Positions 14,852 through 24,906 of a stretch of 64,000 nt of DNA are shown here, one piece after another. Made by a program: the position numbers and the translations under genes. The stretch lies in assembly GCA_947462925.1 (NCBI GenBank), contig CANHQP010000012.1:1-64000 (forward strand), given 5' to 3'. This stretch comes from Flavobacteriia bacterium (GTDB taxonomy: Bacteria > Bacteroidota > Bacteroidia > Flavobacteriales_D > Crocinitomicaceae). A model generated the notes under the pieces. It was not told where the DNA came from and searched no databases. It saw only the letters and a list, made by a program, of their open reading frames with translations. Position 1 is the stretch's first letter. The number at the start of each line of letters is the position of its first letter.

Positions 14852-15823
14852 GTGAAAAAATTTCTAGTTATTCAAACAGCTTTCTTAGGAGATGTAATCT
14901 TGGCAACGCCTGTTGTTTCTGAGTTAGCTAGACTTTTTCCCGGATGCAGTATTGATATTTTAGTTCGAAAAGGCAATGAAACTTTACTTTCAAATAATCA
15001 AAAGATTAATGAAGTTCTGGTTTTAGACAAAAAAGCACCTAAGTTTTCAACGTTAGTGCTTTTACTAAAAAAAATTCGAGCCAATAGATATGATGAAGTA
15101 ATCAATCTACATCGCTTCGCAAGTACAGGGATTTTGACAGCATTTTCAGGTGCAAAACACAAAGTGGGATTTGATAAAAATCCTTTTTCCTTTGCGTACT
15201 CAATAAAAATTAAGCACAAATTGACCGGAGAGCACGAAGTGCAAAGAAATTTGGCATGTATTGCACATCTTGGAGCAGTATCAATGGTGAATCCAGAATT
15301 ATTTCCAAGTGAAATTGATTTTCAGAAAGTGAAGCCATTCATGGAAGAAAAGTATTACTGTTTAGCTCCAGCTTCTGTTTGGTTCACAAAGCAATTGCCT
15401 CTTTCGAAGTGGATTGAATTGGCTAGAATCCTTTCCAGCATGGGAAAAGTATATTTTATTGGTGGGCCAGGGGATAGAGGTTTGTGTGATTCAATTATTG
15501 AAAAAGTAGAGTGTGACAATTGCGAAAATGTCGCAGGAAATTTTTCTTTTTTGGAATCCGCAGTACTTATGCAAAATGCCCAGAGAAATTATGTAAATGA
15601 CTCTGGACCAATGCATATTTGTTCAGCAATGAATGCTGCGACAACTGCTTTTTATTGTTCAACAATTCCCAGTTTTGGTTTCGGTCCGCTAGCTGATGAT
15701 GCTGAGATTAAAGAAACTAATTTAGATTTGAGTTGCAGGCCGTGTGGTTTACATGGATTCAAAACTTGTCCTAAAAGCCATTTTAATTGCGGAAATTCTG
15801 TTAATTTGAATGTTAAATTTTAA
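14852..15823 (+). CDS. glycosyltransferase family 9 (heptosyltransferase-like)
   Basis: A 323-residue GT-B enzyme of the lipopolysaccharide heptosyltransferase family, starting at GTG 14,852. The N-terminus VIQTAFLGDVILATPVV is the family signature, with the catalytic Asp in FLGD. The C-terminal donor-site block NDSGPMHICSA and the earlier LAPASVWFTKQLP match GT9. It presumably adds a sugar to the lipopolysaccharide core on the cytoplasmic face of the inner membrane. The precise donor sugar is unknown. It ends 165 bases before the exopolysaccharide operon. Confidence 0.9.
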   Translation: MKKFLVIQTAFLGDVILATPVVSELARLFPGCSIDILVRKGNETLLSNNQKINEVLVLDKKAPKFSTLVLLLKKIRANRYDEVINLHRFASTGILTAFSGAKHKVGFDKNPFSFAYSIKIKHKLTGEHEVQRNLACIAHLGAVSMVNPELFPSEIDFQKVKPFMEEKYYCLAPASVWFTKQLPLSKWIELARILSSMGKVYFIGGPGDRGLCDSIIEKVECDNCENVAGNFSFLESAVLMQNAQRNYVNDSGPMHICSAMNAATTAFYCSTIPSFGFGPLADDAEIKETNLDLSCRPCGLHGFKTCPKSHFNCGNSVNLNVKF

Positions 15824-15988: not shown

Positions 15989-18055
15989 TTGTTACTGATG
16001 TTGCTCTCGCAGGCTAATTTTTTGTTTGCACAACCTCAAAACGAGCAGAAAGTTGCTGCTACGATCAAGACCCTTCAAAAGATATTTGAAAATGAGGAAT
16101 CGAGGCTTAGCCAAGAAAAACCAATTTCTCGGGATTCTTCTGTAATTACCTTTTTAAGTAAGTTGACTATTCAACAAAAAGATTCTTCATATAGTTATGA
16201 TAATTATTATGACGCGTATGAAAAATTGTTGAAAAAGCAAACTGGTTTAGCTATCAGCGGTGATGCAATTCAAAACTTCAATCAATCGCAAGTCGATCCG
16301 GAAGAAGGGATGCTTTTTAACAGAAGATATTCTGCTGGACTCGAATGGAACATCTTGAAAGATGGTTTTTTTGATTCTCGTTCACAGTTGAAAACACTTC
16401 CAGCAGAAAGAAATTATTTTAACCATTTGGCTAGCAATGAATCTAAAGATGATTTTGGGGTTAAAATTAATGAATGTATTTATTGGTTTAATGAGCATAA
16501 AAAGAGTCTTTTAGTTGAAAGAGAAAGAATTCTTAATAGACAAATTAAATACCTAGAAGATTTATACTTTGCGAAAAAAATTGATAAGGAACAATTGTTG
16601 CGTTCACAAACTAGAATAGCCGAAATCAATGGGATGAAAGGAATTTTTAATTCCTACAACCAACACATCGATTCAAAATTTGACAGTACCTTATTGGCAG
16701 CTGAAGTGCCATTATTTGATTTGAATTATGATTACTTTTTTGGGATTTTGAACTCTCAAGAACTGGCTGATTCAATGCGTTTGTTTTTAGAGGAAAATCT
16801 TTCACGTCAAAATGCTTGGTACAATGAAGTGAGATTAAAAACGTACGCAAAATATAATGTTTTCGATTTGTTAACTGCTGATCCTGCATACAGAAGATTT
16901 TTTAGTGTTGGTGTATCAGTTGGAATTCCAATTCCTTTCACAAATAAAGAACAAACAGCAGTAAATAAGTATAAATCACAGAAACAACTTTACACTCTTG
17001 ATTCAGATCTTAAAAATCAAAGGATTGAACTTCTGAATTTAGCTTATGAATTCAGATATCAATTAAAACAATACATTGTTTTTCATCAAAAAAGAGTTTT
17101 GGCGAACGAAGCAATTCGCAGAGAACGCGTAAAAGCAAAAATGTTAGATGCTGATTTTAATCCCCTACATGGTTTAGAGTTGATTGACAATTTACTTCAA
17201 ATTGACATTGAGCTATTGGATTTGAAACAAAATCTGTACATCAAATTGTTGAGAATTCACTCTAAACAAAATGATTTGCCTCTAGATTCAATGATTGTTC
17301 AATTGGATTTACCAAATTACTTTGATTTTGAAGATGAAACCCAAAGAGGAGTTTATGTTTGGAGTAAAGTATTTGAAACTCAAAATCCTTCTTTTATCCA
17401 TGAATATATTGTTTATAATCAGTTTGATGAGGCATACATTGCAGTTTCCGAAAACGATAAGTTAATCGCTTCTAAGACCGCTTTGGTTAAGGCTTTAAAC
17501 AAAAGTGAGGTTGATGTTTATCCAATGATCGGTCAAAACAAATTGTTAGATTCGGACGATTTCAAAGGCGATTTAGAAGACCTTTTGAAACCTTTTAATG
17601 GATGGAAAGTGGCTGGAATTCATTTAGATATTGAACCACATGTTAGAGCTGATTGGAAAACAAATAAAGCAGAATTGATGACTAGATATTCGCAAATAAT
17701 AGATCAAGCTAAAGTTATTTGTGAAGCAAAAGGATGGAAATTGTCAATTGATATTCCAATCAACATGGATACAGCACATGTAAATGCAATGTTCCCGAAA
17801 GTGGATATGATTAGGTTTATGTGCTACGAAAATGTCAAACAAGATTATTTGGTAAGAAAGTTAAGCGCATTTGCAGCAAACAATAACAAAGCCATGATCG
17901 ATTTAAGAACTGAAGATTTCAAATCTAGAGATGAAATGGAACTTTTTGCTAAAGCTTTATACAAGGAAACAGGAATCAAAGCTTTCGGTTTTCACGATTT
18001 GTATAGGTTGATTGAGTTGGATAAAAAAACAATGATGGAAGATGAAAAACATTAA
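15989..18055 (+). CDS. TolC-like outer-membrane protein fused to a glycosidase-like TIM barrel
   Basis: A 688-residue exported protein. The hydrophobic leader ends at FLFAQ (residue 15); the start is TTG 15,989 or ATG 15,998, and no in-frame start with a charged n-region is seen. Residues about 20-425 are helical with heptad-like stretches and a strand-rich segment around 300-320 (FFSVGVSVGIPIPF), as in outer-membrane efflux proteins. Residues about 454-675 look like a TIM barrel, with VAGIHLDIEP (D547, E549 as candidate catalytic acids), LSIDIPINMD, MIRFMCYEN and IKAFGFHDLY at strand ends. The gene overlaps the adaptor gene by 14 bases. Probable role: export and trimming of the polymer made by the linked synthase (inference). 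Confidence 0.7.
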   Translation: MLLMLLSQANFLFAQPQNEQKVAATIKTLQKIFENEESRLSQEKPISRDSSVITFLSKLTIQQKDSSYSYDNYYDAYEKLLKKQTGLAISGDAIQNFNQSQVDPEEGMLFNRRYSAGLEWNILKDGFFDSRSQLKTLPAERNYFNHLASNESKDDFGVKINECIYWFNEHKKSLLVERERILNRQIKYLEDLYFAKKIDKEQLLRSQTRIAEINGMKGIFNSYNQHIDSKFDSTLLAAEVPLFDLNYDYFFGILNSQELADSMRLFLEENLSRQNAWYNEVRLKTYAKYNVFDLLTADPAYRRFFSVGVSVGIPIPFTNKEQTAVNKYKSQKQLYTLDSDLKNQRIELLNLAYEFRYQLKQYIVFHQKRVLANEAIRRERVKAKMLDADFNPLHGLELIDNLLQIDIELLDLKQNLYIKLLRIHSKQNDLPLDSMIVQLDLPNYFDFEDETQRGVYVWSKVFETQNPSFIHEYIVYNQFDEAYIAVSENDKLIASKTALVKALNKSEVDVYPMIGQNKLLDSDDFKGDLEDLLKPFNGWKVAGIHLDIEPHVRADWKTNKAELMTRYSQIIDQAKVICEAKGWKLSIDIPINMDTAHVNAMFPKVDMIRFMCYENVKQDYLVRKLSAFAANNNKAMIDLRTEDFKSRDEMELFAKALYKETGIKAFGFHDLYRLIELDKKTMMEDEKH

Positions 18056-19136
18056 CTTCAAAAGAAACGAATCAGTACTTAAAGGTCTTGAAATACAGAC
18101 TAAAGGTAAAACAAAGGGTAAAATCAATTGGGATAGAATAATCTATTTTGCCTTGTTGCTAGTTGTTTTATTTTTCTTTTTCAGGTATTTGATTAACGAA
18201 ATGTTTTTTGTTGAAGGCAATGGACAAGTTCGTTTTGAAAATATTTCTATTAGAAATACCGATGATTGTAGGATAGTAGATATTTTTGTCACGGAAGGTG
18301 ATGAAGTTAAAATTGGAGATTCTCTTTTTAGCTACATACCAGACGATGAAAATGCAGATGATAACAACGGCAGCGGTTATGGTTCTGCTGGTTTTGCCTT
18401 AAACTCTAAAAAGCAAGGCGACATTTCATGGTCTGAAAAAGAAATTTTCAAAGTGCGGGAAGAAATTAAAGTGAATAATTTTCTAATTGCGGAAAAAGTT
18501 AAACTCAAAAATTTATATTCGGCCGAGCTTCAAAGAATTAGAAATGAAGTAATGTTAGATGTTTTGCCAAGAAATAAATTAGATGATCAATTGGCAAAAA
18601 TCAATCAACTCAATTTTGACATTCAATCTTTAAGAGGAAAAACTTCTATGCTTTCTGCAAGTATGAATCAATTGGAGGGAATGAAAAGAGATTTAAGTGC
18701 AACCACTACATACGCTGGAAAAGGTGTTGCTGGTGGCGGTGATGATTCAGGTCAGAAAGTTTTTTATTCTCCACTAACAGGAACCGTTACGACTATCATG
18801 AAGAACGAATTTGAAGTAGCTCTGAAAAGTGAGGAGATCATGTCAATTCACAGACCTGAAAACATTTCTGTTAGAGGTTTCTTTCAACAAGAAGATTTGG
18901 CTTCATTGAAGATTGGCGATAGAGTAGATCTTCATTTCCCAGACGGATCAGAGGGTCGTGGAATTATCAAAAGATTTTATTTTGCAACTTATAGATTACC
19001 AGAAGAATTTCAAAAGAAATATGAACCAACGACTAGATCATTGACCGTTGATATTTATCCAGAGACAAAACATGATTTGAAACTTTGGAAAACATATTGG
19101 AAAATGGCAGTTAAAATCACTAAAACTAAATATTAA
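18042..19136 (+). CDS. HlyD-family periplasmic adaptor, Alg44-like without PilZ
   Basis: A 364-residue membrane-fusion protein: a short basic cytoplasmic N-terminus, one transmembrane helix (33-52), a split lipoyl-like domain (60-100 and 241-270, with VTEGDEVKIGDSLF and YSPLTGTVTTIMKN), a helical hairpin (about 130-215) and a beta-barrel domain (275-340). It would bridge the inner-membrane glycosyltransferase to the TolC-like outer-membrane protein encoded just upstream. Unlike Alg44 it has no PilZ domain, so any second-messenger control would come from another subunit. The stop overlaps the next ATG by one base (TAATG). Confidence 0.88.
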   Translation: MKNINFKRNESVLKGLEIQTKGKTKGKINWDRIIYFALLLVVLFFFFRYLINEMFFVEGNGQVRFENISIRNTDDCRIVDIFVTEGDEVKIGDSLFSYIPDDENADDNNGSGYGSAGFALNSKKQGDISWSEKEIFKVREEIKVNNFLIAEKVKLKNLYSAELQRIRNEVMLDVLPRNKLDDQLAKINQLNFDIQSLRGKTSMLSASMNQLEGMKRDLSATTTYAGKGVAGGGDDSGQKVFYSPLTGTVTTIMKNEFEVALKSEEIMSIHRPENISVRGFFQQEDLASLKIGDRVDLHFPDGSEGRGIIKRFYFATYRLPEEFQKKYEPTTRSLTVDIYPETKHDLKLWKTYWKMAVKITKTKY

Positions 19137-20554
19137 TGGCCTTAGAGAACGTAAAAATAAATGCATTGAAGGGTACAATTAAGTATTCTAGCAGAACTTA
19201 TGTTTATATTTCGGCAAGTCGAAAAATAAAGCTAGATAGTTCATCAACTTATGCTGGTATTATTATCGAAGGTAGAAATGTTGAGTTTGTGAGAATGGTC
19301 TTGAGAAGAATTCGTGGGAGTCATAATCCAGACGTTTACTTGAAGCCAGTATTTTTGATGAATGGTAATGCACACAAAGATCCCTTGGTGGCTAAATTGA
19401 TTGATGGTATTCTAAATTCATTCGATCAAATTCCATTAATACACGATATTACGGAAGCAATCAATCAGCGAAAAACAGAATTGACTTTCATTAATTCAAT
19501 TTCATTTGAAGCTCAAGTACTTTCGAAATTGATGTGCTACATGTACACCCGTGACGAGAAAGAATTAGAGCCTGTGCCTTACGCACTTTCAAGTACAAAC
19601 TATTCATTTCCTTTTTTGGCTTGTAATTACGAGCCACACGATGAGTTTCAAATATTTGATTTGTTGCAAGTTGCTGTTAATGAAGGACTATTTTCTGCTG
19701 AATATTCAGATCGAGTTTATTTGTGTGCCAATTGTAAATCTTCACACCTAAGTTATAGAGAAACTTGCACCAAATGTAATTCTACAAACACAGATTCATT
19801 TGATATTGTTCATCACTTTCCTTGTGCTTATGTGGGTCCAATGACAGATTTTACCAATGATTTAGATGATAAATTAAACTGCCCAAAGTGTTCTAAAACT
19901 TTGAAGCACATTGGTATTGATTACGATAAACCATCTGTGCTGCACATTTGTAAGAATTGTAATCACCGATTCCAAGATTTCAATGTTCGCGCTAAATGTA
20001 TGAGTTGTACACATGACAATCCAGTGGAACAACTTGTTGCGAAAGAGATTTTTACATATACTCTTAGTAAAAAAGGTGAGGATGTTGCACTCAGAGGATA
20101 TTCTTCCACACCGAAAGATATTGAAGAAATCATTGGCACAGTCAAATTTGACACCTACAAAACAGTAGTTAAATATGAGGTTGAGCGTATCAGACAAACT
20201 GAAGGAAGTTCTAATATTGTTGCCGTTAATATTGTCAATGCGGGACAATTTTATGCCAAAGTTGGAAGCAATGGTCAGCAAGCTTTTTTACGTGATATTG
20301 TGAACGAAATTCGCTCTTCAATTCGCTCCTCAGATATGATCACTTTTTACTCTTCAGAAATCATTTTGATTACAATGAATGATATTCCAAGTAAAATTGT
20401 AAATCGTATCTTGAATGATATTCTGGATTTATTGAGGAAACTAATTGAAAATAATTTCAGTGATTTAGCACTTGATATCAATGGTAAAGCCTTGCAATTG
20501 AATTTGGAAACTACCTCTGAGCTTCAAATTAATGAATTGATTAATAGCTTGTAA
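19136..20554 (+). CDS. TackOD1 zinc-ribbon protein with degenerate GGDEF domain
   Basis: A 472-residue cytoplasmic protein in three parts. Residues about 1-110 look like a receiver-like alpha/beta domain. Residues about 165-295 carry five CxxC pairs (197/200, 211/214, 249/252, 272/275, 288/291) plus HHFPC at 226-230, fitting the TackOD1 output domain. Residues about 345-445 resemble a GGDEF fold, but the GGDEF loop reads FYSSE (404-408), so cyclase activity is unlikely. By analogy with PelD and BcsE it may bind c-di-GMP or sense metal to control the linked synthase (inference). It has one-base TAATG overlaps on both sides. Confidence 0.72.
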   Translation: MALENVKINALKGTIKYSSRTYVYISASRKIKLDSSSTYAGIIIEGRNVEFVRMVLRRIRGSHNPDVYLKPVFLMNGNAHKDPLVAKLIDGILNSFDQIPLIHDITEAINQRKTELTFINSISFEAQVLSKLMCYMYTRDEKELEPVPYALSSTNYSFPFLACNYEPHDEFQIFDLLQVAVNEGLFSAEYSDRVYLCANCKSSHLSYRETCTKCNSTNTDSFDIVHHFPCAYVGPMTDFTNDLDDKLNCPKCSKTLKHIGIDYDKPSVLHICKNCNHRFQDFNVRAKCMSCTHDNPVEQLVAKEIFTYTLSKKGEDVALRGYSSTPKDIEEIIGTVKFDTYKTVVKYEVERIRQTEGSSNIVAVNIVNAGQFYAKVGSNGQQAFLRDIVNEIRSSIRSSDMITFYSSEIILITMNDIPSKIVNRILNDILDLLRKLIENNFSDLALDINGKALQLNLETTSELQINELINSL

Positions 20555-21858
20555 TGAGTGTAAACGAATTCTTTGAGTATTTGCAAGCAATGGGGTTTGC
20601 CCGTTTTGCTAGGGTATTCTGGTTTTTCGTATTTTTTGAACTTGTTCGATATGTGATAGTAGATTTTATTTCCTTAAATTCAGCGTTTATGAAAAAACGC
20701 TTCACGAGAAGTTTAAGAGAGGAAGCAACATATAGAATGAATTTGGAGCAACCGCTTGTTTCTGTTATTATTCCCGGAAAGAATGAGGGTAAACATATCT
20801 ACAAATTGGTGATGTCTTTGCGAGAGCAGACTTACCAAAATATTGAAATCATTGTGGTAGATGATGGATCGGATGACGATACACCCTTAATTGGAAAAGA
20901 CATGGAAAAAAATGGATTCATTGATAAGTTTATTAGAAATGAATTCAGAGGAGGAAAAGCTTCAGCAGCCAATTTAGCTTTGCGTTTTTCGTCTGGAAAG
21001 TTTGTAGTGCATATGGATGCCGATTGCAGTTACAATAGAGATGCCATTTTCGAAATTATTGTTCCTTTTTATGAAGATGATAGAATCGGTGCAATTGGAG
21101 GAAATGTTATGGTTAAGAATTACAAAGATTCGTTAGTAACCACGCTTCAAGCAATTGAATACTATGATACGATTTCCATAGGAAGAATTGTTACAAGTCA
21201 CTTAGGCATTTATCGTGTTATTTCAGGAGCATTTGGTGCTTTTAAAATGGAAGCCATGCAACAAATTCAAGGTTGGGATATTGGACCTGGATTGGATGGT
21301 GATATTACGGTGAAAATTCGTAAAGTTGGCTACCGAATTAAATTTGCTCCGGATGCTGTATGCTTGACAAATGCGCCAAACACTTTTAAAAAACTGGCCA
21401 AACAAAGATTGCGTTGGGATAAAAGTTTGATTCGATTCAGATTGAGAAAGCATAAAGATGTATTTTTTCCCAATCAACATTTTAGTTTTTCAAGTTTTAT
21501 CTCCTTCGTGGAAAACATTACATACAATTTGATTTTGAACGTAAAATGGTATGTATACGTGATTGACATGGTAGTAAATTTTCCATCGGAGCTTAAATTT
21601 GTGATCTATACCAACATTTTATTGTACACCACTGTAAACTACCTGAAATTTTTGGTTTTTTCATTGTTCAGAAGGTACAAAAATGCGCCAGTGAGCTACT
21701 TTTTAATTTACATTCCATTGATGGTAGTTTATTTTGGTTATTTTTTGAGGTTCGTAAGATCAATCGCTTACATTCAGGAAATCTTCTTTAAAAAGTCTTA
21801 TGATGACCCTTGGAATCCACCCAAATCTTCTTCTCAAGCAAAAAAATTGGGAATATAG
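20554..21858 (+). CDS. processive membrane glycosyltransferase family 2 (exopolysaccharide synthase)
   Basis: A 434-residue inner-membrane enzyme that should polymerise a nucleotide sugar and push the chain across the membrane. One hydrophobic helix at 18-42 precedes the GT2 domain with DDG (103-105), DAD (155-157), the acceptor-site GLDGD (246-250) and the processive-synthase motif QRLRW (284-288). Hydrophobic segments at about 322-350 and 355-415 form the C-terminal channel. No PilZ domain is present. It is the last gene of the four-gene operon. The polymer is unknown; alginate-, hyaluronan- and PNAG-type synthases share this layout. Confidence 0.88.
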   Translation: MSVNEFFEYLQAMGFARFARVFWFFVFFELVRYVIVDFISLNSAFMKKRFTRSLREEATYRMNLEQPLVSVIIPGKNEGKHIYKLVMSLREQTYQNIEIIVVDDGSDDDTPLIGKDMEKNGFIDKFIRNEFRGGKASAANLALRFSSGKFVVHMDADCSYNRDAIFEIIVPFYEDDRIGAIGGNVMVKNYKDSLVTTLQAIEYYDTISIGRIVTSHLGIYRVISGAFGAFKMEAMQQIQGWDIGPGLDGDITVKIRKVGYRIKFAPDAVCLTNAPNTFKKLAKQRLRWDKSLIRFRLRKHKDVFFPNQHFSFSSFISFVENITYNLILNVKWYVYVIDMVVNFPSELKFVIYTNILLYTTVNYLKFLVFSLFRRYKNAPVSYFLIYIPLMVVYFGYFLRFVRSIAYIQEIFFKKSYDDPWNPPKSSSQAKKLGI

Positions 21859-21894: not shown

Positions 21895-24800
21895 ATGAAA
21901 TTACTTTTTACTTTACTATTGATTCTTTTTACTGCTGGTATGTCATTTTCTCAATTGAGAATCAACGAAGTATTATTCAAGCAAACCGGTTTGTATTTTG
22001 ACTTTGAGTCAGATTGTTATCCAATGGTTGAATTAATCAATACTTCAACCAATACGATAAATGTTTCTGATTATTATTTGTCTGATAATGAAATTGAATT
22101 GACCAAATGGCAACTGCCAAATATCAATCTTGTTGCAAATGGTAAATTAATCATCTACTTGAGTGGAAAAGGACTTTATGTTCCTGAAAATCATACTAGT
22201 TTTAAAGTTGGGAATGAAGAATCTTTGGTTTTATCTAATGCTGGAGGAATTGTAAGTCAAGTTTCGTCTGAAAATCAACATTTAAACTATAGTTATTCCA
22301 GATTTCCAGATGCTACAGGGAACTTTGTGTACTCAGTGCCCTCCATGAATGCAAACAATAATAATGGACTTTCAACTTTTCCGTCTACGCCAAGCGTTAA
22401 TCTAGTTTCTGGTGTTTATCCAGTCAATACAGTAATAACCTTTGGATCAAATCCACTGCCAATTAAATACACTTTAAATGGCAAGGAAGTAGAGAATAAT
22501 TCTCCAACTGCCCCTGCTTCTATTACTTTGACAAATCCCAACCTAAGACCAAATAAGTTTTCAGAGATCCCAACAAATCCAGGCATGAATTATCCAATGG
22601 GTGATTACAGTCAATCACGTGCCGATAATCGTGGATGGGTTGAGCCTTATGGTAATGTGCCAAAGGCATTTGTTCTAAGAATGAAAACTTTTTCAACTAA
22701 TGGCGTTGAATCAGAAGAAAAAGCATACACTTATTTCACATCACTGCCAGCTTATAATCTTCCTATCATGTCTATCATAACTGATAGCATTGGTTATTTT
22801 GATGACGAAACGGGAATTTACGTTTATGGTGATTCACCTTTGGGAAATTATGAGTTTCTTGGAAGAAGATATGAACGACCAGCGATAGTGCAATTTTTTG
22901 ATACTGCAGGGGTTTTTGAAAGAGAAATAGTGCTCGGGACTAGAATCCATGGAAATGGTTCAAGGCACGCTGCACAAAAAGCATTGAGGCTATACAATCG
23001 TTTTGATTATGATGAAACTAGTCTTGAATTACCTAATGGTGATAGAACTGAAGTCGCTGTTTTACGCGGTGGAGGTCACCGACTTGATTGTATTGGACGT
23101 GATTACCTATCAAATAAATTTGTTGGTGATATGAAAATGGATCACGTAAAACCTTTTTTATATGCGGTTTATTTGAATGGCGAGTTTTGGGGGATACATG
23201 ATTTAAGAGAAAGATTAGAAGCGGATGCTTTTGCTGAAAGATATGGCTTGGACAATGACCATGTTGGTGTTGTAGATCATACCTATTTGTTGACTGATGG
23301 CTATATTCCTGTTGCCAACGAATTTGAACAAATTACTTTGTTCGCAGAAAACAATGATCTTTCTGTCCCACAGAATTATGAATACATTGCCAGCAAGGTC
23401 GATATCGGATTGTTAATGGATTTATTCTGTTCTGAAATCTTTTTAGGGAATGCTGACTTTCCTCAAACGAATATTTCTTTTTGGAAATACCAAGATGATA
23501 AAATTGATACTAAATGGAGACATTTTATTTTTGATCTTGACGCAGCTTTTGGTGGCTCGTGTGATACAGTGTACAAATCATTCAATGCTTTAGAGTATTT
23601 TTTACAAGAAACTGACAATGGTTGGTTAAAAGCAAATAGATTGTTGAGAAATTTATTGGAAAATAATGATTTCAAAGTGATGTTTATCAATAGAATGGCT
23701 GATTTATTAAATACTGAGTTCAAAGCAGAAGTGTTGATGCCGATTTTTAATGAATACAAAGCAGATATTTTGAATACCAGAACAGATCATGTAAACCGTT
23801 GGAGATATCCTTCTATGAGTTCAACACTCGCAGAAAGAATGTTAGAAACGCCAACTTTGACAAAATGGAACAATTTAGATGCAGGTTTTTCAAATTATTT
23901 TATTGATAGACAGCGCAGTGTTAGAAATCATTTCAATGCGAAATTTAGTATAGCAGATAGTGTTAGGATAACTTTAAATGTAAATACTATAAATCGTGGT
24001 TTGATAAAAATCAATGATTTATACATATCGAAAGCAGTCTCAGGTGTAAACGATTTAGCTCCGTTTCCATGGAAAGGTCAGTATTTTGCAGCAATTCCTT
24101 TTCCAGTAACTGCCATTTCTAAAAGAGGATTTAAATTTGAAAGTTGGTCGAATGTTCCATCAACTACTTATGCTGGAACAGTTTCTACAAGTGCTGATTT
24201 GGTCATTTCTGCCAATTTTGTTGCTGATCCAAACTTTATTGAACCAATGATTAATGAGGTTTTGATAAGAAATGAATACAACTGGGCGGATGAATTCGGA
24301 CAATTTGAAGATTGGATCGAAATCTACAATAAAAATAATTACCCAATTACTTTAGAAGAGTACTTCTTGACTGACGACATTGCAAATCCGACTAAATATC
24401 GCTTGAAACCAAAGAATGAAAGTGTAATTCCTGCTAACGGTTACCAATTGTTTTTTGCTTCAGAGGAAAGAAATCGTGGTGCAAATCACACCAATTTCAA
24501 ATTGAGTGCTGGAGAGACTTTGTACTTGTATGCGCCTGATAGCACAACAATCATAGATGAAATTGATTTACCAGATTTAGATGTTGATTTTTCATATGGA
24601 AGTTCTCCAAATGGAAGTTCGACTAGAGTAGTTTTTGATAGCCCAACTCCTTTAAATAACAATGATTTGTCAGAAGTTTTAGAGTTGGAAAAAATCAAGA
24701 AAACATTTACGGTTTATCCCAATCCAAATGATGGTTCTTTGGTGTACACTTCCATTTCAAATGATTACAGTGTATACAACATGCAAGGTTCTTTGATTTT

Positions 24801-24906
24801 GAAGACTTCAAATACAAATCAATTGTCTATTGGAGGATTGCAAAGTGGAACATATTTGGTGATAAACAAAGAAGGTTCTACACAGCTATTGGTCGTTGCC
24901 AAATAG
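21895..24906 (+). CDS. secreted CotH-kinase protein with lamin-tail domains and T9SS sorting domain
   Basis: A 1003-residue surface protein. In order: signal peptide to about residue 20 (GMSFSQ), a lamin-tail domain (about 21-145), a chitobiase-C-terminal-like segment (about 165-260, IKYTLNGKEVENNSP), a CotH kinase domain (about 285-690, with HGNGSR at 352-357, FWGIHDLRERLEADAFAERY near 431-450 and HFIFDLDAAFG at 543-553), a second lamin-tail domain (from 783) and a type A sorting domain (about 930-1003, TVYPNPNDGS). CotH proteins are secreted, atypical protein kinases. The gene follows the exopolysaccharide synthase by 36 bases with its own promoter; a functional link is only suggested. Confidence 0.88.
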   Translation: MKLLFTLLLILFTAGMSFSQLRINEVLFKQTGLYFDFESDCYPMVELINTSTNTINVSDYYLSDNEIELTKWQLPNINLVANGKLIIYLSGKGLYVPENHTSFKVGNEESLVLSNAGGIVSQVSSENQHLNYSYSRFPDATGNFVYSVPSMNANNNNGLSTFPSTPSVNLVSGVYPVNTVITFGSNPLPIKYTLNGKEVENNSPTAPASITLTNPNLRPNKFSEIPTNPGMNYPMGDYSQSRADNRGWVEPYGNVPKAFVLRMKTFSTNGVESEEKAYTYFTSLPAYNLPIMSIITDSIGYFDDETGIYVYGDSPLGNYEFLGRRYERPAIVQFFDTAGVFEREIVLGTRIHGNGSRHAAQKALRLYNRFDYDETSLELPNGDRTEVAVLRGGGHRLDCIGRDYLSNKFVGDMKMDHVKPFLYAVYLNGEFWGIHDLRERLEADAFAERYGLDNDHVGVVDHTYLLTDGYIPVANEFEQITLFAENNDLSVPQNYEYIASKVDIGLLMDLFCSEIFLGNADFPQTNISFWKYQDDKIDTKWRHFIFDLDAAFGGSCDTVYKSFNALEYFLQETDNGWLKANRLLRNLLENNDFKVMFINRMADLLNTEFKAEVLMPIFNEYKADILNTRTDHVNRWRYPSMSSTLAERMLETPTLTKWNNLDAGFSNYFIDRQRSVRNHFNAKFSIADSVRITLNVNTINRGLIKINDLYISKAVSGVNDLAPFPWKGQYFAAIPFPVTAISKRGFKFESWSNVPSTTYAGTVSTSADLVISANFVADPNFIEPMINEVLIRNEYNWADEFGQFEDWIEIYNKNNYPITLEEYFLTDDIANPTKYRLKPKNESVIPANGYQLFFASEERNRGANHTNFKLSAGETLYLYAPDSTTIIDEIDLPDLDVDFSYGSSPNGSSTRVVFDSPTPLNNNDLSEVLELEKIKKTFTVYPNPNDGSLVYTSISNDYSVYNMQGSLILKTSNTNQLSIGGLQSGTYLVINKEGSTQLLVVAK

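Follow-up and report, generated by a model that had tools for sequence, protein, structure and literature searches.

How a bacterium might polymerize a sugar in the cytoplasm, pass the chain through its envelope and switch the process on is the question raised by four genes in a Flavobacteriia bacterium (Crocinitomicaceae; assembly GCA_947462925.1). They lie on the forward strand of the first 64,000 nucleotides of contig CANHQP010000012.1, the whole stretch analyzed here and referred to as the window. In order, they encode a TolC-like outer-membrane channel carrying a C-terminal triose-phosphate isomerase (TIM) barrel (gene 1), an HlyD-type periplasmic adaptor (gene 2), a regulator with a TackOD1 zinc ribbon (gene 3), and a glycosyltransferase family 2 (GT2) enzyme of the processive type (gene 4). 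An initial annotation had proposed that they form an undescribed synthase-dependent exopolysaccharide system following the cyclic di-GMP (c-di-GMP) logic of the Pel, cellulose (Bcs), and alginate systems. The open reading frame (ORF) coordinates reproduce exactly the overlaps of 14, 1, and 1 bases that it reported between neighboring genes. We conclude that the operon in all likelihood specifies a synthase-dependent polysaccharide secretion machine. This conclusion is built on the synteny of the genes, on their domains and motifs, on the grouping of the GT2s in one clade, and on the existence of the barrel in both fused and separate forms.

The prediction that the four genes would be conserved together was borne out. 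When 99 relatives of the window genome were searched with gene 1, 20 gave matches; these include the window's own genome and one genome in which the match is weak and partial and the block is absent. An independent TackOD1 search of 395 genomes across the phylum recovered 13 loci over the cut-off from 12 genomes. One of these is the window, and the other 12 all lie within the same four-gene block. A search of a genome collection with a single protein returned only four close loci. With two more loci added from that collection, 32 loci were read besides the window. The order TolC-like, HlyD, TackOD1, GT2 on one strand is kept in all 32, and overlaps of a few bases between the genes are frequent. 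The flanking genes vary between families. At distant loci, identity is ∼20–30% for genes 1–3 and 47–58% for gene 4. Because order and strand are shared by every one of these related loci, the arrangement is more than chance, and the four genes are a real, conserved unit in Bacteroidota.

The layout is not confined to the phylum in which it was first noticed, as it extends to alpha- and gammaproteobacterial plasmids. Proteins from 72,556 plasmid records were searched with genes 4 and 3 independently. The top-ranked GT2s retrieved with gene 4 are mostly those adjoining a TackOD1 gene, with HlyD next, and the core in these plasmids is TackOD1-GT2-HlyD. An order of this type was found in Roseibium, Methylocystis, Plesiomonas, Alisedimentitalea, Phyllobacterium, Palleronia, Aminobacter, and Photobacterium (two loci). 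An Aeromonas plasmid carries TackOD1 and GT2 genes before the record ends. In an unannotated Sinorhizobium medicae plasmid record (L091:3863-7562), a GT2, an HlyD-like protein, and a small zinc-ribbon protein of TackOD1 type are encoded in a row.

Gene 4 matches the Pfam family Glycos_transf_2 at 95.9 bits. Its best NCBIfam match, over nearly the full family length, is PgaC/IcaA (167 bits versus a cut-off of 422). The GT2 signature motifs and the QxxRW of processive synthases are kept in all full-length homologues, and 94 residues are invariant among the 32 members of the family. In a maximum-likelihood tree, the TackOD1-linked GT2s form one clade (support 97/96), outside which all of the references fall: E. 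coli PgaC, IcaA, NodC, BcsA, BgsA, OpgH, and ArnC. Only this clade was used, and not the branching order of the references, because the branches of OpgH, ArnC, NodC, and XrtG are long. The assignment to a processive type of GT2 is upheld by the motifs. The possibility that gene 4 is a true PgaC was rejected on the strength of the score and the separate clade. Across eight carriers, the runner-up GT2 paralogues scored ∼40–70 bits (the highest about 68), compared with 494–975 for gene 4. Profile matches in the PDB were headed by chondroitin synthase and included hyaluronan, heparosan, and chitin synthases. Since these matches are largely led by synthases of N-acetylhexosamine polymers, they point to a product of that kind, and the polymer perhaps contains N-acetylhexosamine. 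Hydropathy places one membrane segment near the N terminus and about three near the C terminus. No transporter was recognized inside the block, which leaves the GT2 as its only multi-helix membrane protein.

The adaptor and the channel complete the set expected to span the envelope from an inner-membrane synthase outward, in agreement with the original description. Gene 2 matches HlyD_3 at 32 bits, over the cut-off, and has one N-terminal transmembrane helix (residues 33–51). The outer-membrane efflux family PF02321 (OEP) is matched by 11 of the 21 members of the gene 1 family; the L066 homologue, for example, scores 44.5 bits versus a cut-off of 22. AlphaFold modeled the C-terminal 239 residues as a TIM barrel with a predicted local distance difference test (pLDDT) score of 94.6, so the fusion of barrel to channel stands as first described. 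Searching the PDB with only the gene 1 sequence yielded nothing meaningful, just spike-protein noise. When the barrel model was compared by Foldseek, the best match was the glycoside hydrolase family 18 (GH18) chitinase 4wiw, with several GH18 entries near the top, and 2 of the 21 family members match Pfam Glyco_hydro_18. An invariant HxDxEP on one barrel strand and MxY on another correspond in position to the DxE pair and MxY of GH18. GH18 enzymes use substrate-assisted catalysis on an N-acetylated substrate; if the alignment is right, catalysis here would likewise be substrate assisted and the substrate N-acetylated. The statement that the system has no separate hydrolase therefore has to be amended, because a GH18-like domain is present but fused to the channel, and in Methylocystis it is a gene of its own. 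The Methylocystis protein has a Tat-like signal, retains HxDxE and MxY, and is encoded between the genes for HlyD and a TolC (OEP, 160 bits). From this split arrangement it can be argued that the barrel works in the periplasm and is part of the same system as the channel. The barrel has been lost or eroded at five Bacteroidota loci, and the remaining genes are kept there.

The gene content of some of these loci is of separate interest. The L062 cluster, where the barrel is lost or eroded, contains a gene of the UDP-glucose/GDP-mannose dehydrogenase family (identified by Pfam); a DUF4114 protein is also encoded at L062. At L060, L063, and L064, which also have no barrel, an ORF of the same size (∼455 amino acids) occupies the same place, the correspondence being one of size and place only. 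The L062 dehydrogenase-family gene is a plausible source of precursor, a hint that the polymer of these four barrel-less relatives may contain uronic acid.

The arrangement suggests a path for the product. The gene 4 enzyme would polymerize sugar from a cytoplasmic nucleotide-sugar and feed the chain through the inner membrane, where the gene 2 adaptor would bridge the periplasm to a TolC-type trimer of gene 1. If the topology is that of TolC, the GH18-like barrel of every gene 1 subunit would face the periplasm. The barrel could trim or clear the polymer, as the hydrolases PgaB, BcsZ, and PelA do for theirs, and the cytoplasmic gene 3 protein would serve as a switch acting directly on the synthase.

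Gene 3 matches TackOD1 (PF18551) at 171.5 bits, versus a cut-off of 32 (174.4 bits in a second scan), and the Cys/His columns are invariant across the family alignment. Profile matches of its N terminus are to the response regulators 2qxy and 3b2n. The C terminus has a weak Pfam match to GGDEF (13.9 bits, below the cut-off). Its model adopts a GGDEF fold (TMt about 0.7 to GGDEF domains, Foldseek), and its PDB profile matches include DgcR. In the window, SSEII replaces GGDEF, and RSSD stands five residues before it. The combination of TackOD1 with a degenerate GGDEF is thus as initially described. The signature is degenerate in all of the sequences aligned, none of which has the GG(D/E)EF of an active diguanylate cyclase. 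D400 of RSSD is invariant; R397 is kept in the window's own order and in gammaproteobacterial relatives and is lost in the loci of family f35, which belongs to another class. When 29 carrier genomes were searched, the only GGDEF matches were gene 3 itself and no EAL protein was found; controls such as E. coli and Caulobacter were positive. In the Pel, alginate, and Bcs systems, a c-di-GMP receptor, either PilZ or a degenerate GGDEF with an I-site, works in a cell that signals with this nucleotide; here, RxxD occurs in part of the family only. Because the GGDEF is degenerate and the carriers have neither another GGDEF nor an EAL, control of the Pel/Bcs style is not supported in these Bacteroidota, and the idea that gene 3 is a c-di-GMP receptor there was set aside.

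A different input is suggested by the relatives. In most f35 loci, gene 3 appears to begin with a true receiver domain (L066, the only one scanned, scores 78 bits), and ahead of it lies an additional small gene akin to the N-terminal domain of window gene 3. In Roseibium and Palleronia, a receiver is fused to the TackOD1 protein, and genes for a histidine phosphotransfer (Hpt) protein and a histidine kinase adjoin. The fused receivers and the neighboring Hpt and kinase genes suggest a phosphorelay. For gene 3 in Bacteroidota, we regard a phosphorelay or receiver input as more likely than c-di-GMP, and the switch in these carriers is probably independent of the nucleotide. In the proteobacterial relatives, c-di-GMP may still exert control.

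The nearest published parallel is mxdABCD of Shewanella oneidensis, a cluster that this species needs to build three-dimensional biofilm and whose product is thought to be an exopolysaccharide; it encodes a GT2 (MxdB) and a protein resembling efflux pumps (MxdC) (PMC3691769). For MxdA, binding of c-di-GMP and interactions with the stand-alone receiver CheY3 and the cyclase PdgA have been reported (PMC7666153, PMC11395469). The published gene order of the cluster, effector-GT2-adaptor, recurs in Plesiomonas and Photobacterium as TackOD1/GGDEF-like, GT2, HlyD, and the pairing of MxdA with CheY3 recalls the receivers fused to the TackOD1 protein in most f35 loci and in Roseibium and Palleronia. 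In contrast, the Bacteroidota order is channel-adaptor-regulator-synthase, so that the same gene set is collinear with Mxd only in the proteobacterial loci and is rearranged in Bacteroidota, and the Bacteroidota operon encodes a TolC with a fused GH18-like barrel in carriers where no c-di-GMP enzymes were found. A plasmid search with a gammaproteobacterial TackOD1 query listed no Shewanella record among its matches. The likeness, drawn from published layout and not from sequence, makes membership of the Mxd family a strong lead. The Bacteroidota machine is best read as apparently Mxd-like and uncharacterized in that phylum. To that extent the system is indeed undescribed, whereas the same published layout belongs to a characterized biofilm locus in Shewanella (PMC3691769, PMC7666153).

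As reported for MxdA, the same machine might instead be turned on by c-di-GMP bound at the RxxD I-site retained in gene 3. R(S/T)(S/A)D stands exactly at the I-site in aligned loci of the window's own order, RDTD takes that position in the gammaproteobacterial Plesiomonas, Photobacterium, and Aeromonas, and MxdA itself is a c-di-GMP binder (PMC7666153, PMC11395469). With 29 carriers devoid of EAL and of any GGDEF beyond gene 3, and with the I-site arginine gone from the f35 loci, we consider this explanation improbable. One could also take gene 4 for a non-processive GT2 that makes a glycolipid or lipid-linked sugar and assign HlyD-TolC to efflux or type I secretion, the two sharing an operon by chance. 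HlyD and TolC families are mostly exporters, and a glycosyltransferase family 9 (GT9) heptosyltransferase-like gene lies upstream in many family-f1 loci. That account is very improbable in view of the QxxRW in every full-length gene 4 sequence, a best family match to PgaC/IcaA over nearly its full length, and distant loci that have no GT9; moreover, no ATP-binding cassette (ABC), major facilitator superfamily (MFS), or resistance-nodulation-division (RND) gene was recognized in the block.

Within the secretion machine that we favor, the barrel could bind without cleaving, or have a purely structural role in the channel, and not be an enzyme. Histidine does take the place of the second Asp of the GH18 DxxDxDxE, and the five loci without an intact barrel manage to keep the other parts. 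Set against this, D547, E549, Y613, R640, D643, and D670 are invariant in 28 of 28 barrels, the pattern of an active site, and the separate Methylocystis barrel conforms to the same pattern; we think a noncatalytic barrel unlikely. Other points count against the machine as a whole. Polymer formation and export are predictions from the genes, and the distribution across the 99 relatives is sporadic. Window gene 1 by itself has no Pfam or NCBIfam family match, the GH18 match of its L066 homologue is below the cut-off (23.9 versus 29.6 bits), and other, generic TIM barrels match the barrel nearly as well in Foldseek. With ∼4 clear membrane segments, gene 4 has fewer than hyaluronan synthase; it would either depend on an additional helix from a partner, perhaps HlyD, or not translocate the chain.

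Other characterized systems share parts of this machine. PgaABCD/IcaADBC, the PNAG system, has the synthase family nearest to gene 4 and, in PgaB, a periplasmic glycoside hydrolase domain. PgaA is a tetratricopeptide repeat (TPR)/β-barrel porin and PgaB a deacetylase-hydrolase. These systems are without HlyD, TolC, and TackOD1, and gene 4 falls outside the PgaC/IcaA clade. The cyanobacterial XcsAB-TolC cellulose model has a GT2 synthase, an HlyD adaptor, a TolC outer channel, and a glycosidase partner, but XcsA is a cellulose synthase with a PilZ or PCR domain, and the Thermosynechococcus TolC is encoded elsewhere (PMC12430437); here, there is no PilZ and all parts are in one operon. The rhizobial BgsBA system for mixed-linkage glucan combines a GT2 with an HlyD-domain protein in one operon. 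It differs in that the BgsA C terminus itself binds c-di-GMP and no TackOD1 gene is in the operon as described (PMC9495663), and BgsA groups with BcsA in our tree. The same zinc ribbon is found in archaeal TackOD1 response regulators, also joined to receivers, where it occurs in type IV pilus loci and as a receiver output with a function called obscure in 2018 (PMC5847659); here, it stands beside a polysaccharide synthase. Haloarchaeal plasmids carry TackOD1 proteins as well, one of which (L087:8836-9813) is near response regulators and HalOD1 proteins and has no GT2 beside it.

It is quite possible, although we propose it only tentatively, that these loci constitute a separate class of machine in Bacteroidota and Proteobacteria. 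A distinct GT2 clade would have TackOD1 as its dedicated clutch, which c-di-GMP could drive in some lineages and phosphorelay alone in others. The Bacteroidota TolC trimer would bear a ring of periplasmic GH18-like domains, placing export and trimming in one protein. For TackOD1, the operon offers a concrete role to test, that of controlling a synthase of polysaccharide. Fusion of a glycosidase-like domain to a TolC-type channel is architecturally unusual. A 2025 review described the cyanobacterial model as without experimental validation and its parts as not in one operon (PMC12430437), and an operon with synthase, HlyD, and TolC bears on whether GT2 polymers exit via HlyD-TolC conduits. Because the apparently Mxd-like machine occurs in genomes without detectable c-di-GMP enzymes, its switch can be studied apart from that nucleotide.

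Table 1. Features of the four-gene operon and its downstream neighbor (positions in the window)
Feature	Position	Strand	Basis
Gene 1, TolC-like + TIM barrel, 688 aa	15989-18055	+	ORF list
Gene 1 N-terminal part: signal-like N terminus and TolC/OEP-like outer-membrane channel domain	15989..17335	+	Family OEP matches
Gene 1 C-terminal GH18-like TIM barrel, residues 450-688	17336..18055	+	AlphaFold, Foldseek
GIHLDIEPH, residues 543-551; H545, D547, E549 invariant; presumed DxE catalytic pair	17615..17641	+	Alignment
MCY; M611 and Y613 invariant; equivalent of GH18 MxY strand	17819..17827	+	Alignment
Gene 2, HlyD-type periplasmic adaptor, 364 aa	18042-19136	+	Pfam HlyD_3
Gene 3, REC-like/TackOD1/GGDEF-fold protein, 472 aa	19136-20554	+	PF18551
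Gene 3 REC-like (pseudo-receiver) domain, residues 1-118	19136..19489	+	Profile matches 2qxy, 3b2n
Gene 3 TackOD1 zinc-ribbon domain	19508..20065	+	PF18551, invariant Cys/His set
Gene 3 degenerate GGDEF-fold domain	20132..20500	+	Foldseek, PDB profile matches
RSSD, residues 397-400, I-site position	20324..20335	+	Alignment
Gene 4, processive-type GT2 polysaccharide synthase, 434 aa	20554-21858	+	Pfam GT2, tree
D103/D104, conserved GT2 aspartates	Gene 4 residues 103/104	+	Family alignment
DAD, residues 155-157, nucleotide-sugar/metal-binding motif	21016..21024	+	Sequence motif
DGD, residues 248-250, presumed acceptor-base motif	21295..21303	+	Sequence motif
QRLRW, residues 284-288, QxxRW motif of processive synthases	21403..21417	+	Family alignment
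CotH kinase + Lamin Tail Domain + type IX secretion system (T9SS) sorting signal, optional neighbor	21895-24906	+	Directly after gene 4

Gene 1 has no good ATG; the first listed start is the TTG at 15989, and translation may really begin a little farther upstream, at another non-ATG codon. Directly upstream of gene 1 lies a GT9 heptosyltransferase-like gene (14852-15823), also found in this place in L022, L024, L025, L027, L029, and L031–L037, mainly in the window's family and in one other. It was not present in the flanks read at distant Bacteroidota loci, and for this reason it is probably a neighbor and not a part of the machine. The gene for the CotH/Lamin Tail Domain/T9SS protein directly follows gene 4 at 7 of 33 Bacteroidota loci (the window, L022, L023, L028, L030, L038, and L075); its product may act together with the polymer at the cell surface.

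Individual loci show further variations. In L024 (12825-13740), a 146-base tandem repeat of 6.3 copies lies between genes 3 and 4 and splits the otherwise tight operon. L061 and L060 are two divergent copies of the cluster, ∼15 kb apart in one genome, and the adaptor of one copy has a C-terminal SPOR domain. L074 comes from a metagenome-assembled genome labeled Chitinophaga pinensis; as this locus is the nearest to the window's genus (gene 4, 73% identity), the label is probably wrong.

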